Part shown: positions 47,620 to 55,878 of the stretch, one piece after another
How the letters are laid out: every line of letters begins with the position of its first letter
How positions within the stretch are numbered: the stretch's first letter is position 1
Assembly: GCA_016235675.1 (NCBI GenBank)
Contig: JACRJN010000054.1
Coordinates: 1-56,308, forward strand
Direction of reading: 5' to 3'
Length of the DNA: 56,308 bases
DNA from: Candidatus Schekmanbacteria bacterium
GTDB taxonomy: Bacteria > SZUA-182
The notes under the pieces: generated by a model
Databases searched by the model: none
Told to the model about the DNA's origin: nothing
The model's input: the letters and a program-made list of their open reading frames with translations, nothing else
Translations under genes and position numbers: made by a program

Positions 47620-47660
47620 TCCTTATTTGTTTCAACGTGGGAATACGTCGAAGCATCCAT

Positions 47661-47710
47661 TGTAGTGTGGGCTGTGTCCAGCAAAACCAGTGGGCACAGC
47701 CCACACTACA
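47661..47710. repeat. Palindromic repeat, family H
   Basis: TGTAGTGTGGGCTGTGTCCA...TGGGCACAGCCCACACTACA. Related to 43876-43921. Ends 10 nt before the mntA ATG. Confidence 0.85.
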
Positions 47711-47720
47711 GAATAAAATC

Positions 47721-48149
47721 ATGAAACCAACCACCCTTCCCACAACCGAAAAAGAAGCCATCATCCGGCAACTAACGGACATTTTAGCCGAGCGGGAGGA
47801 GATTATCTTCTCCTATCTGCACGGTTCCTTTGTGGATGGGCAATACTTCCGGGACTTGGATGTGGCGGTGTATGTGGATGAGAAGTGCATAAACCGGGAA
47901 GGTGCCTGGGATTATGAATTTAAATTAGCTTCGGATTTGAACGATCAAATCAGGCGGGTGACTATAGACACCAAGGTTTTTAATTATGCTCCGATAGGGT
48001 TTCAATATCATGTAACTTGTGGTAGATTATTAACCAACCGGGATGATGATTTGCGGGTGGATGTGATTAGCAGGGTTTGGAATCTTTATTTTGACTTGCA
48101 GCCTTTAAACAGACGTCTTTTTAAAGATTTGGTGGGTGTCGATGAGTAA
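47721..48149 (+). CDS. mntA: MntA-type nucleotidyltransferase antitoxin
   Basis: A 142-aa MNT protein: SYLHGSFVDGQYFRDLDVAVYVDE holds the GS and D-x-D active site, and the C-terminal half has a conserved PIGFQYHVTCGRLL segment. In type VII toxin-antitoxin systems this enzyme AMPylates the HEPN toxin HepT. It overlaps the next gene by 8 nt. Ribosome binding site weak; a palindromic repeat ends just before the start. Confidence 0.9.
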   Translation: MKPTTLPTTEKEAIIRQLTDILAEREEIIFSYLHGSFVDGQYFRDLDVAVYVDEKCINREGAWDYEFKLASDLNDQIRRVTIDTKVFNYAPIGFQYHVTCGRLLTNRDDDLRVDVISRVWNLYFDLQPLNRRLFKDLVGVDE

Positions 48150-48561
48150 AATTAATATTGAGCGTGTAAATCAATTTATCAGTGAAATGAATGAGGCATT
48201 GAAGTCTGTCAAATCTATATTAGAATCATCCACAGAAGACATAATTCAAAACAAAATGCAACTGGATATTTTAAAATATAATTTGATTATTGCAATACAG
48301 GCGACTATCGACATCTGCTACCACGTTTCCGGCAAATTGGGCATGGCTCCACAAAGTTATAAGGATTGCTTTAAAAATTTAACCGAATTAGGAATAATAG
48401 ATAAATATTTATCTAAACGGTTAGAGGACTTGGCCGGGTTGCGTAATATATTGATTCATTTGTATTGGAAAGTGGATAATGCCCTGGTTTGTAAAACCGC
48501 AAAAGAAAACCTTGATTGTTTCCCGTTGTTTGTAAAATCTTTGGCGAAATTGGATGTTTGA
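48142..48561 (+). CDS. hepT: HepT-type HEPN endoribonuclease toxin
   Basis: A 139-aa all-helical HEPN protein. The RNase motif R-x4-H is present as LRNILIHLYW, including the following Tyr that the partner MntA modifies. IQATIDICYHVSGKLGMAPQSYKD is the usual central helix. Unlike the HEPN gene at 28733, this one is intact. Start ATG 48142 overlaps the end of mntA. Confidence 0.92.
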   Translation: MSKINIERVNQFISEMNEALKSVKSILESSTEDIIQNKMQLDILKYNLIIAIQATIDICYHVSGKLGMAPQSYKDCFKNLTELGIIDKYLSKRLEDLAGLRNILIHLYWKVDNALVCKTAKENLDCFPLFVKSLAKLDV

Positions 48562-51058: not shown

Positions 51059-51195
51059 GGTAGCGTTCTCAATCAGAGACCCGAAGCGTCATTGCGAGGC
51101 AGCCGATATGCCGAAGCAATCTCATCCACACGCATGGAGATTGCTTCGCTACCGCTCGCAATGACACTTCGGGGGCTCCCTATTGCTACGCGACC
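51059..51195. repeat. Nested repeat: same host plus family A composite as 33248-33382, inverted
   Basis: Left flank GGTAGCGTTCTCAATCAGAG, family A core 51088-51165, right flank GGGGGCTCCCTATTGCTACG and CGACC. Confidence 0.88.
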
Positions 51196-51239: not shown

Positions 51240-51347
51240 AATACCGTTCACTTAAGACGTAGCGCAGGGCTTTAGCCCTGCTTATGGGGTGGTTTTGGCG
51301 GGAACGAAGGAGCAGACCTAAAGGTCTGCGCTACGTTAAGTGAACAG
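51240..51347. repeat. Nested repeat: family K host with family B guest
   Basis: CAATACCGTTCACTTAA at the left and TTAAGTGAAC at the right (last bases diverged), with AGCGCAGGGCTTTAGCCCTGC and GCAGACCTAAAGGTCTGCGCT inside. Same composite as 4238-4352 with the guest inverted. Confidence 0.86.
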
Positions 51348-51415: not shown

Positions 51416-51518
51416 ATACCAAGTTGCGTTCAAAATGATACAAATGTAGTTGCCCAATTCCTTGGGCAGAAAGAACCTGATAAATCAGGTAACTACATTT
51501 TTAAACGCAAGTTGGTAT
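51416..51518. repeat. Palindromic element with ATACCAAGTTGCGTT ends
   Basis: Terminal inverted repeats ATACCAAGTTGCGTT and AACGCAAGTTGGTAT (one mismatch), then AAATGTAGTTG / GTAACTACATTT inside, then CCCAATTCCTTGGG and CCTGATAAATCAGG small palindromes. Confidence 0.85.
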
Positions 51519-51658: not shown

Positions 51659-52858
51659 ATGAATTACCAGCAACTTTCGGATATAGAATTGATTGAGCTT
51701 TTCTTGCGGCAAGACGCGGATTGCGTTGCCATACGGGATGAGTTGTTTGGCCGCTATTATCCGCGCCTCGATCAGCGTATCCGGGCGGTGCTGCATAATT
51801 GCGGCCTGCCGTACTCGCCGGGGGTGTTTTATTACAATGAAATATTCTTGGATATTTATAAACAGCTATTTGAATTGGATGCCTTGAGAGTAATTCTGCA
51901 AAAGTATGATGCCGGAAAAGGGGTGTTCAGTAGTTGGTTTTTAAACTATGTGGTGGTCAATAAGGTCAGGGATTGGCTGAAAAAAAAGCGTGATTTCAAC
52001 AAGGAAAGGAACATCGACCGGCTGAAAACCAGAATCAGTCAGGAACAAAGGGAATTGTCTTTGACCGAACCGCAGGCAAATGACGGTGAGGGGCTAGCGT
52101 TAGCCGAACTGTTGCAGTCAAAAGAAACGCTGGAGGATGAGGAACGGCAAAAAGTTGTTAACACCGCGCTTAATCGGCTTTCTTCCAATCAAAGAGCGGT
52201 CATTTACCTGATGTTTAGCGCTTATATTGATTTGCCGGAGGAAAGTTTGGTGTATTTAGCCCGAGAAATAAAAATAGCTTTACCCTTGGTCAAGGAAAAG
52301 CTAAGCAGCATCTCTTTAGAAATCAGGCAATCGGAAAAATATCGGCAGGGGGAGCGGATCGAACTTGCCCTGGCTTGTTTATTCCAGCAAAAGGAGATGT
52401 TGGAAAAAAAACTGGCTGCTATAGAATGGGAATTAACTAACCTTTTTCCCGACCGGGAAAATCCCCTTCAAAATGATATTACCCGCCTGCAACTGAAAGA
52501 CTTTATCCAAGCCCGGCAAGATTTAACCCTGGTGTACAAAAAGGGGTGTCTGACAGAATCGGAATATCATTATAACTTATTGTTAATCAAGCATCAGCAC
52601 ACCGCAAAACAATTAGCGAATACCGTACAAAAATGGTCTAAATCAGTCCGGGAATACAATGCCGGTAAATACATCGCCTGCCCCGGTTATAAACGACTGG
52701 CGGCTTTATTTAATATCCCTGAAGGGACTATCGCCAGCCGCATCAATCGTGCGGTGAATAATTTAAAAGAGTTGTTGCAAGGGGAAGAAAAGGGCTATAA
52801 TGATCGTATATGTAAACCAGGGGTTTCCTGTCTTGGGGGTGATGGACATGTCCTTTGA
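51659..52858 (+). CDS. Long sigma-factor-like protein (ECF/sigma-70 type)
   Basis: A 399-aa protein, about twice the length of an ordinary ECF sigma factor. Residues about 5-115 resemble sigma region 2 (LRQDADCVAIRDELFGRYYPRLDQRIRAVL, KGVFSSWFLNYVVVNKVRDWLKKKRD). A region-4-like segment (LNRLSSNQRAVIYLMFSAYIDL) lies at about 175-200, followed by a long helical insert. A second helix-turn-helix of region-4 type is at about 342-375 (RLAALFNIPEGTIASRINRAVNNLKELL). It may direct RNA polymerase to a dedicated regulon or have become an adapter. The following gene overlaps by 11 nt and a CHAT protease gene comes next. I do not recognise this exact architecture as a described family. Confidence 0.72.
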   Translation: MNYQQLSDIELIELFLRQDADCVAIRDELFGRYYPRLDQRIRAVLHNCGLPYSPGVFYYNEIFLDIYKQLFELDALRVILQKYDAGKGVFSSWFLNYVVVNKVRDWLKKKRDFNKERNIDRLKTRISQEQRELSLTEPQANDGEGLALAELLQSKETLEDEERQKVVNTALNRLSSNQRAVIYLMFSAYIDLPEESLVYLAREIKIALPLVKEKLSSISLEIRQSEKYRQGERIELALACLFQQKEMLEKKLAAIEWELTNLFPDRENPLQNDITRLQLKDFIQARQDLTLVYKKGCLTESEYHYNLLLIKHQHTAKQLANTVQKWSKSVREYNAGKYIACPGYKRLAALFNIPEGTIASRINRAVNNLKELLQGEEKGYNDRICKPGVSCLGGDGHVL

Positions 52859-53570
52859 ATCGGAGAAAATACAACCGGAATTTTTACAGCAATTGCGTTC
52901 TGTGTTTGAGGCCAAATCCCGGCGATATGAGCAAACGCGGTCTTATTGCGGGCACGAAACTAACGCGGAGCAGTTGGAATTCAGGCTGTGGGAATACGCA
53001 TCGGGAGATATGCCGGATGATTTAGCCGAACCCTTTTGGGAGCGGATACAGGAATGCCCGTATTGCTTAGAGAAACTATTGCAGATTCAGCAATCTATCC
53101 GGCATGTAGACAAGCAGCTTTCTTATCCGCCGGCACAAATAAATAAGCTGATTAAGCAAAAAAACGGGGCTAATCTTTTGGACATAGCGCTTGGATGGGT
53201 TAAGGGTTTATTAGAGTTGATCAACACCACCGGTTTATTATTGCCTCCCGAACCCGTTCCCGTCATCAGAGGCTCTGCTCAAATCTCCCTTCCGGCGTTA
53301 AGAATAGCTGAAGAATTTGAAAAATGTACCGTGCAGGTGTTGGCCGAAAAAACCGATCATCAAACCTGCAATATCGAGGTGAAAGTTCAGCCTCTAATCC
53401 CTCTTGCTGAAGATTTAAAGGTTACCCTGAAAAAATCGCAGCGTTTGCTGATTTCAAAATCGTTAACGGGCGATGGAATCGGCTTTGAAGAATTGACGCC
53501 GGGAAGTTATCAAATAATCCTGGCGCTGGGGAATGAAAGCTGGGGGCAGATTCTGCTGCAAATAGATTAG
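52848..53570 (+). CDS. Zinc-finger-like protein, possible anti-sigma factor
   Basis: A 240-aa soluble protein. The start at 52848 is preceded by GGGGG at 8 nt. Residues about 30-75 hold YCGHE and, after LEFRLWEYASGDMP, the pair ECPYC. This looks like an anti-sigma zinc-binding domain (zf-HC2 type: L-x2-Y-x2-G-x-L/M followed by CxxC), although the ligand set is C34, H36, C70 and C73 rather than the classical H-x3-C-x2-C. The C-terminal half (about 135-240) is beta-rich (IEVKVQPLIPLAEDLKVTLKK, FEELTPGSYQIILALGN), resembling small Ig- or carboxypeptidase-regulatory-like folds. No membrane helix is clear. Overlap with the sigma-like gene strongly suggests direct partnership. Confidence 0.65.
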   Translation: MSFESEKIQPEFLQQLRSVFEAKSRRYEQTRSYCGHETNAEQLEFRLWEYASGDMPDDLAEPFWERIQECPYCLEKLLQIQQSIRHVDKQLSYPPAQINKLIKQKNGANLLDIALGWVKGLLELINTTGLLLPPEPVPVIRGSAQISLPALRIAEEFEKCTVQVLAEKTDHQTCNIEVKVQPLIPLAEDLKVTLKKSQRLLISKSLTGDGIGFEELTPGSYQIILALGNESWGQILLQID

Positions 53571-53631
53571 TACAGCATCCATTTTCGAAGTAAACAAAAA
53601 CCCAAAGCCTGCATTTAGGTGGTGATTCATA

Positions 53632-55878
53632 TTGAACACTAAGCCGTCATCTGAAAACAACATCTTTGTATTAAAGGTATTTCAAAAGCAACAGCACCTT
53701 GAAGTAAGCGCCTTTGAAAGAAAAGGCCCCTTGCGGAATTTTGTCGAACACCGCTTTAGAGAGGACGAAGTCGATCGTTGTCATCAGGAGCTAATCGCCC
53801 TTTTCAACAAATGCAACCGTCAGGGGGAAATCTCACAGGATCAGCTTAAAAAATTGAAAGCCTTAGGCCAATTGCTCTATGACGAGTTATTGCCCCTAAC
53901 CGCCAAGCAAAGCCTAAATTCCACCCAGGCGGAATATCTTATTTTAGATGTAGACGACAAATTGAATCACCTTCCTTGGGAATTGCTTTTCGACGGTTCC
54001 CGCTTCTTATGCCTGCGTTTTAGTATGGGAAGAATTATCCGCACTACGGATGTTCCCCAAGCCGCTAAGTCACGAAATCTTAACTCCCCCTTAAAAATGC
54101 TTGTCTTATTCGATCCTAAAGGCGATCTTGCGGCGTCTTGGGGAAAAGACGAATTAACGGAAGGGGAGTTAATCCTGGATTTTCTTTCCCGGCAGAATTC
54201 ATTGGCGGCGGATTTTAAAGGCAGCCCGATTGACGGCAATTACCTAAAAATGTACCTGCGGGATTATGACTTGATCCATTATGCGGGGCACGCTGAATAT
54301 GACTTACAGGCTGTGGAAAAAAGCGGCTGGCTGCTGTCCGATAAAAAACTGTTGGCTTCAGATATAGTCAAGATGCAAGGGGTGGAAAAGTCATTTCCCT
54401 CTCTTGTATTTTCCAACGCCTGCCAATCCGGGATCGCCGGCAAATGGAAGGCGCTGAATATCTACGACCTGGCCAAAGCCTTTCTGATAACCGGCGCACA
54501 GCATTACATCGGCACCCTCTGGGACATCTTGAATAAAACCAGTTCCCATTTGGCCTTGGCCTTCTATGCGGAGTTAGTTCAGGGGAAACCGGTGGGGGAG
54601 GCTTTAAAAAACGCCCGCTTACAGACAATTCAGGCACAGGGAGAAAAATCCATCATCTGGGCTAGTTATATCCTCTACGGTGACCCCACCGTTACTTATT
54701 TAAATCAGGCAAGCGTTGAACAAACAGACCGGCTTCAAAGCACAACCTCGGATATTAAACGGGGAACATGCCCAAAGCCGGTAACCGCGGTCTCTAAAAA
54801 AACTTGGATGTCTGGCGCTGTTTTATCGGGAGTCGTTTTACTGTTTTGGGTTGCTTTCCGCTTACACCATTCTCAGGAGGATGCTTTATTAAATCGAAAA
54901 TATAAAGCGGCTTTGGAGTATTTGGAGTCGGGAAATTATAGCGCCGCCATAACCTTAAGCCGGGAATTAGAGAAACTAAATCCCGGCACTGCCTATAGTT
55001 CGATAATTTTGGGTGACGTGTTTCTGGTTCAGGGGAATCTTAGCAAAGCGGTTATTGAATACACCAATGCCGCTGAAGGGGCAAGCTCATCGTCGCAGGA
55101 GAAAAGCCTGGCCTATAATCGCCTGGGACGGCTATATTCAAGTCAAAACAACTATAAACAAGCCCTGGCTTATTATGATCAAGCCATTAGCCATAATTCC
55201 CAAGATTCCCAATTATATTTTAACAAAGGGATGCTCTGCAAAAAAATAGGGGATTACCCGCAAGCCCAAAGGCAATTCGACCAGGTATTGCACTTAAATC
55301 CTCAAGACCGGCTGGCGGCTGTATTTAAAGAAGAGATCGGGCAATGTCTCGCCGACCTGGAAAATTCGGAGCGCAAAGAGAGGATAGATAAATTAATCAA
55401 TGAATTAGTTGAGGCATATCATAACCAAAACAGACCGCGTTCTGTCACCGGGGAGAAATCGGATACGCTGCCGACTATTACCTTTCTGGACTTTAAAAGC
55501 CGTGTTTCTGTAACCTCCCCTGAGGGTGAAGATGAATACATACTGCTCAAAACTATTGAGTATTTAAACCGGAGCGGGCAGGTCAAAGTGGTGGAACGTC
55601 AGTTAGTCGCGCATCTTCTGGAAGAACTTAAACTGGGGGCATCCGCACTGGCAGACCCGCAGGTATCGATCCGGCTGGGCAAGATACTGGCGGCTAAAGT
55701 GATCATTACCGGCAATATAATCAGAGAGGGAAGCCGCTTTATTATAGGAATGCGCCTGATTGAAACGGAAACCACCGCAATCCGTGCTGCAATTGCCGAA
55801 ACGCCGGAGACAACGCTTTCCCTGGATGAGATAGCCCGGATTCTGGCCGATAAGATTGTGGGCAGTATACAAAGATAA
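53632..55878 (+). CDS. CHAT protease with TM, TPR and CsgG-like C-terminal domain
   Basis: A 748-aa protein starting at TTG 53632 (AGGTGGTGA upstream). Residues about 100-360 form a CHAT caspase-like peptidase: LPWELLFDG, then the catalytic dyad His 220 in HYAGHAEY and Cys 264 in FSNACQSG, then GAQHYIGTLWDI and ILYGDPTVTYL, all typical. A single transmembrane helix lies at about 392-410 (SGAVLSGVVLLFWVAF). TPR repeats follow at about 425-585 (AAITLSRELEKLNPGTAYS, LAYNRLGRLYSSQNNYKQALAYYDQAI). The last 140 residues (about 605-745) look like a CsgG/LpoB-type domain (TITFLDFKS, VKVVERQLVAHLLEEL, LGKILAAKVIITGNI). The peptidase would face the cytoplasm and the TPR-CsgG part the periplasm, so it could relay envelope status to the sigma-like pair upstream. 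Confidence 0.85.
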   Translation: MNTKPSSENNIFVLKVFQKQQHLEVSAFERKGPLRNFVEHRFREDEVDRCHQELIALFNKCNRQGEISQDQLKKLKALGQLLYDELLPLTAKQSLNSTQAEYLILDVDDKLNHLPWELLFDGSRFLCLRFSMGRIIRTTDVPQAAKSRNLNSPLKMLVLFDPKGDLAASWGKDELTEGELILDFLSRQNSLAADFKGSPIDGNYLKMYLRDYDLIHYAGHAEYDLQAVEKSGWLLSDKKLLASDIVKMQGVEKSFPSLVFSNACQSGIAGKWKALNIYDLAKAFLITGAQHYIGTLWDILNKTSSHLALAFYAELVQGKPVGEALKNARLQTIQAQGEKSIIWASYILYGDPTVTYLNQASVEQTDRLQSTTSDIKRGTCPKPVTAVSKKTWMSGAVLSGVVLLFWVAFRLHHSQEDALLNRKYKAALEYLESGNYSAAITLSRELEKLNPGTAYSSIILGDVFLVQGNLSKAVIEYTNAAEGASSSSQEKSLAYNRLGRLYSSQNNYKQALAYYDQAISHNSQDSQLYFNKGMLCKKIGDYPQAQRQFDQVLHLNPQDRLAAVFKEEIGQCLADLENSERKERIDKLINELVEAYHNQNRPRSVTGEKSDTLPTITFLDFKSRVSVTSPEGEDEYILLKTIEYLNRSGQVKVVERQLVAHLLEELKLGASALADPQVSIRLGKILAAKVIITGNIIREGSRFIIGMRLIETETTAIRAAIAETPETTLSLDEIARILADKIVGSIQR

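Follow-up and report, generated by a model that had tools for sequence, protein, structure and literature searches.

In the RseA/DegS/RseP-sigmaE and RsiW-SigW systems, an anti-sigma factor that itself spans the membrane is proteolysed in response to an envelope signal. Cutting of an anti-sigma factor by a CHAT protease is established for Craspase, the type III-E CRISPR system, in which Csx29 (TPR-CHAT) cleaves a flexible loop of Csx30 and so relieves CASP-sigma; no residue of Csx30 is essential for cleavage (PMC10028731). The same logic is established with a different protease, CalpL, a Lon protease activated by cA4, which cuts CalpT bound to CalpS (PMC11417357), and control of sigma factors in this way has so far been described mainly for proteases linked to CRISPR. 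CHAT genes have also been noted near genes of ECF54 sigma factors, which are described without an anti-sigma factor (PMC8999054). The mechanisms reviewed for soluble anti-sigma factors comprise conformational change, partner switching and mechanosensing complexes (PMC8999054).

Here we describe a three-gene cassette from a 56,308-nucleotide stretch of DNA (the window) that encodes an ECF-type sigma factor, a soluble anti-sigma-like protein and a CHAT protein with a single predicted transmembrane helix. If it works as proposed below, it would resemble the RseA/DegS/RseP-sigmaE and RsiW-SigW systems in coupling an envelope signal to anti-sigma proteolysis, but with the anti-sigma factor soluble and the protease, as predicted, spanning the membrane. 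The likeness to Craspase (Csx29, Csx30, CASP-sigma) comprises the CHAT domain, the ECF sigma factor and a presumed anti-sigma substrate cut in a loop (PMC10028731); the locus differs in its predicted membrane anchor and periplasmic part, in its zinc-type anti-sigma protein and in its apparent lack of Cas7-11. Neither Cas7-11 nor any other RAMP protein was matched in the 89.65% complete genome of the window, in which controls were positive, and membership of type III-E CRISPR Craspase was rejected on this ground. The likeness to CalpL/CalpT/CalpS would consist of a protease that cuts a soluble anti-sigma factor and frees an ECF sigma factor (PMC11417357), whereas the protease here is a CHAT protein with a predicted periplasmic sensor, not Lon.

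As in ECF54 and the EACC2-caspase/ECF-sigma/DUF1822 association, an ECF sigma gene lies here close to a gene for a CHAT or caspase-like protein (PMC8999054, PMC8195603). An anti-sigma-like gene distinguishes the locus from ECF54, a comparison made by gene content, and the published account of EACC2 features a caspase domain and DUF1822 in place of CHAT-TM-CsgG or a zf-HC2 partner (PMC8999054, PMC8195603). Chain B of PDB entries 8rot and 8rw5, a 991-aa CHAT domain-containing protein, gave weak matches to the CHAT profile (E=0.34) and, through its N-terminus, to the anti-sigma profile (E=0.018); it is one fused protein, whereas the genes here are separate, and no paper on it was found in the open-licence literature searched. 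Nor was a paper found that describes a sigma / zf-HC2 / CHAT-TM operon, an absence that is weak evidence as it concerns open-licence literature only.

Gene content and conservation of the cassette

The first-pass annotation had described three tightly linked genes, the second overlapping the first, and all three reading frames are present and intact in the window. The sigma gene (51659..52858, + strand; 399 aa) overlaps the anti-sigma-like gene (52848..53570, + strand) by 11 bases; the latter frame is open from 52800, with 52848 as the best start. The CHAT gene follows (53632..55878, + strand; 748 aa, TTG start), and the contig ends 430 bases past it. Imperfect inverted repeats (51080-51173, 51257-51336 and 51439-51503), possibly small mobile or repetitive elements, lie within the 650-base gap that precedes the sigma gene, and a nucleotidyltransferase and HepT-like pair (47637-48561), a probable MNT/HEPN toxin-antitoxin system, is found ∼3 kb upstream of it. 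At the other end, the start of a DUF559-like reading frame, recognized by eye, is cut by the contig end (56181-56308).

The sigma gene product had been called double-length and sigma-factor-like. Its identity as a sigma factor held, with a match to NCBIfam sigma70-ECF (E=2.4e-12) and a 47-bit match to a relatives-only profile that covers both the region 2 and region 4 parts; the doubling did not, and judged by these matches and the predicted model the protein is a single ECF sigma factor with an insert rather than a head-to-tail pair of sigma factors. Residues ∼1-190 carry region 2 and the first part of region 4, and residues 342-384 the region 4 helix-turn-helix; between them an insert of ∼150 residues (190-340), mostly helical in the model, splits region 4. 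A tandem duplication was rejected because the matches of the second half fall mainly on the final part of region 4 and long helices intervene in the model. Sigma factors of the relatives are 184-242 aa long (one truncated copy apart); they have the contiguous region 4 and the total of ∼200 aa that are typical of ECF sigma factors, if not strictly defining, and the window protein has neither. Likewise, Pfam sigma region 2 was matched in 32 of 41 aligned relatives but not in the window copy. The sigma profile matched SigW (2.8e-20), a Foldseek search with the window sigma model was uninformative, and a plasmid search gave no sigma match. Upstream of 42 operons no shared promoter motif stood clearly above shuffles, and autoregulation by the sigma factor is therefore unsupported.

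A search with the CHAT half over 112 genomes turned up close relatives from the same class and from a single other group; their loci comprised a sigma gene (∼205 aa), a partner (∼240 aa), the CHAT gene and a further gene (∼690 aa). With the CHAT alignment as query, a scan of contigs from bacterial genomes produced 80 loci, with labels including Deltaproteobacteria/Desulfobacterales, Nitrospirae, Nitrospinia, Omnitrophota and others. Co-occurrence of the sigma gene with CHAT-TM-TPR-CsgG, named beforehand as the observation on which the first interpretation could fail, was conserved: sigma and anti-sigma-like genes were both present at 49 of the 58 loci with more than 2 kb upstream, on contigs of such distantly related groups as Desulfobacterota, Nitrospirota and Omnitrophota, and in nearly all of the 49 the three genes run sigma, anti-sigma, CHAT along a single strand, overlapping or separated by short gaps. 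Because these 58 loci had been chosen by CHAT, a reverse search was run with the anti-sigma-like profile over 297 genomes sampled evenly across a single phylum, and over some smaller sets in addition. This identified 21 full-length anti-sigma-like proteins, with this CHAT adjacent to 20; at the exception (L183; G198:C235) the sigma and full-length anti-sigma pair had no CHAT gene in the ∼5.7 kb downstream examined; the next reading frame, of 1454 residues, has a signal-like start. Neither a sigma nor a partner gene was present at any of 25 further CHAT loci, a modest control given flanks of only ∼1.5 kb. The linkage of sigma, anti-sigma and CHAT genes is far beyond chance.

The anti-sigma-like protein and its loop arginine

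The partner protein was initially read as zinc-finger-like. The window protein alone has no Pfam match and only a weak match to RsrA in NCBIfam (0.081), so relatives were needed to settle this reading; they upheld it, with zf-HC2 matched by 42 of 50 aligned homologues. The alignment profile also matched the solved anti-sigma factors 3hug_B, DdvA (8rlz), RsiW (5wuq) and ChrR (2q1z). By resemblance, the product is an anti-sigma factor, which would bind and inhibit the neighboring sigma factor. The zinc-ligand His found in 59 of 62 homologues is Arg in the window copy, so that H-x3-C-x2-C is replaced by R-x3-C-x2-C with an additional upstream C-G-H; this nearby Cys-Gly-His might substitute for the lost ligand.

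In the predicted model, numbered from 52851, a helical N-terminus is followed by a beta hairpin, a coil (127-148) and a C-terminal beta-sandwich (149-238) that was confidently modelled (mean pLDDT 81). The protein has no membrane helix, and the Foldseek hits of the model were all generic beta-sandwiches of Ig/FN3-like type (best E 0.008). An Arg (codon 53268..53270, + strand; PVPVI-R-GS) falls in the predicted coil, ahead of the beta-sandwich, and occupies one alignment column in 61 of 62 non-redundant homologues, while neighboring loop residues vary. Within one residue of that column it is present in all 64 of 64 homologues, usually after Val or Ile and before Gly (41) or Ser (14). Zinc-finger-only relatives have neither an adjacent CHAT gene nor the loop motif. 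Its conservation and predicted position suggest that this Arg is likely the P1 residue of a putative CHAT cut site (Arg/Gly), but it could instead be structural, and the dispensability of any single residue for cleavage of Csx30 counts against an Arg cut-site model.

The CHAT protein and its outer-membrane companions

Domain profiles and hydropathy agreed with the CHAT-TM-TPR-CsgG architecture originally assigned. The CHAT domain (PF12770) covers residues 77-351 (E=5.7e-34; 118 bits against a cut-off of 24), TPRs lie at residues 424-561, and the CsgG/LpoB-like part matches PF03783 (E=2.3e-6). A single hydrophobic helix (residues 393-411; 54808..54864, + strand) has a charge bias that places the N-terminus inside, and a helix just after CHAT is found in 48 of 52 homologues; the predicted topology thus has a cytoplasmic caspase-like domain and a periplasmic TPR/CsgG-like part. 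The active site picked out in the first-pass annotation, His220 (YAGH; codon 54289..54291, + strand) and Cys264 (FSNAC; 54421..54423, + strand), is invariant in 44 of 44 homologues, as are several further residues. Because the dyad is invariant, an active enzyme appears to have been kept, and protease activity is predicted.

When the full-length CHAT profile was compared with the PDB the results were swamped by TPR proteins, and the search was repeated with the CHAT domain alone. The Pfam separase C50 model was scored by 16 CHAT family members and the gingipain C25 model by 8; separases and Arg-gingipains cleave after Arg. In 18 of 44 relatives (including L065 and L067), CHAT is preceded in the same protein by a class III adenylate/guanylate cyclase domain, with catalytic motifs mostly intact.

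Two further proteins accompany the cassette. One, a frequent neighbor, is a TPR/Ig/CsgG protein whose N-terminus often resembles that of a lipoprotein; the other, a FadL/OMPP1-type outer-membrane barrel, is a neighbor at 42 loci. Such companions fit envelope sensing, although we infer the signal itself. The window locus has no adjacent lipoprotein or barrel, the contig ending shortly after the CHAT gene. Its own genome carries a TPR/Ig/CsgG lipoprotein on another contig (C77), and no convincing FadL-type barrel was found there. The window copy is atypical in its sigma region 4 insert and in a zinc finger without the usual His, oddities that may reflect divergence or partial decay, with reading frames and active site intact.

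A proposed relay and its alternatives

We consider it fairly probable that the cassette relays an envelope signal to transcription and that its membrane-spanning component is the protease and not the anti-sigma factor. In the resting cell, the ECF sigma factor would be held by the soluble zinc-type anti-sigma protein, with the CHAT protein seated in the inner membrane, its caspase-like domain cytoplasmic and its TPR/CsgG-like part periplasmic. The periplasmic part, which in many relatives could meet the TPR/Ig/CsgG lipoprotein and the FadL-type barrel, would sense an envelope signal and activate the CHAT domain; this would cut after the invariant Arg, in an exposed loop that joins the sigma-binding domain to the C-terminal beta-sandwich. 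Thus weakened, the anti-sigma protein would be degraded or let go, and the sigma factor would direct its genes. The original interpretation, in which the CsgG-like part activates the protease either to free the sigma factor or to make a lethal cut, is on the whole partly supported.

What appears to set the cassette apart from the described systems is that its anti-sigma protein is soluble, of zinc type and equipped with a dedicated loop, that its CHAT protein is predicted to span the membrane and to carry a CsgG-like part in the periplasm, and that outer-membrane proteins accompany it. The chances seem to us about evenly balanced that these traits amount to an inverted, CRISPR-free and envelope-sensing layout, in which a transmembrane caspase-like protease, coupled with barrel and lipoprotein, acts on a soluble anti-sigma factor by cutting its dedicated Arg-Gly/Ser loop, and to which the fused cyclases (18/44) suggest a second-messenger arm. 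If so, CHAT proteases would control sigma factors outside CRISPR, envelope signals would have a new route to a soluble anti-sigma factor, and the cassette could be a relative of the wiring from which Craspase-type signaling arose.

An alternative that we regard as unlikely makes CHAT the output: the sigma factor and a redox-type zinc anti-sigma factor would control expression of CHAT, lipoprotein and barrel, and CHAT would cut some other target. Soluble zinc anti-sigma factors do usually answer cytoplasmic oxidative signals (PMC8999054), and the regulon of a sigma factor often consists of the genes downstream of its own. Yet the beta-sandwich and loop Arg go with this CHAT (20/21) and both are missing from zinc-finger-only relatives, no shared promoter motif was seen, and the zinc site is degenerate in the window copy. 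Quite unlikely, in our view, is a three-protein complex in which CHAT regulates the anti-sigma protein by binding and the Arg loop is a docking or structural element, not a cut site; here the reported action of soluble anti-sigma factors through conformational change, partner switching and mechanosensing complexes (PMC8999054), and the predicted adjacency of the Arg to the folded beta-sandwich, must be set against a His/Cys dyad invariant over 44 divergent members, which argues for catalysis. The invariant loop Arg makes the cleavage idea of the relay model directly testable in a single experiment.

A lethal role, as put forward in the first-pass annotation, or an anti-phage one, with CHAT as executioner, is unsupported here and very improbable: CHAT proteases act in defence systems such as Craspase (PMC10028731), PADLOC found the CHAT part weakly similar to BovA and the nucleotidyltransferase/HepT pair lies ∼3 kb upstream in the window, but no relatives were found among the viral contigs searched, the genome has no RAMP-type Cas match, and the conserved neighborhood holds outer-membrane and periplasmic proteins rather than defence, toxin- or pore-like genes.

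Two more CHAT proteins are encoded in the same genome (L001 on C67 and L003 on C118); they are not in sigma operons, and one is apparently joined to an NTPase-like part.
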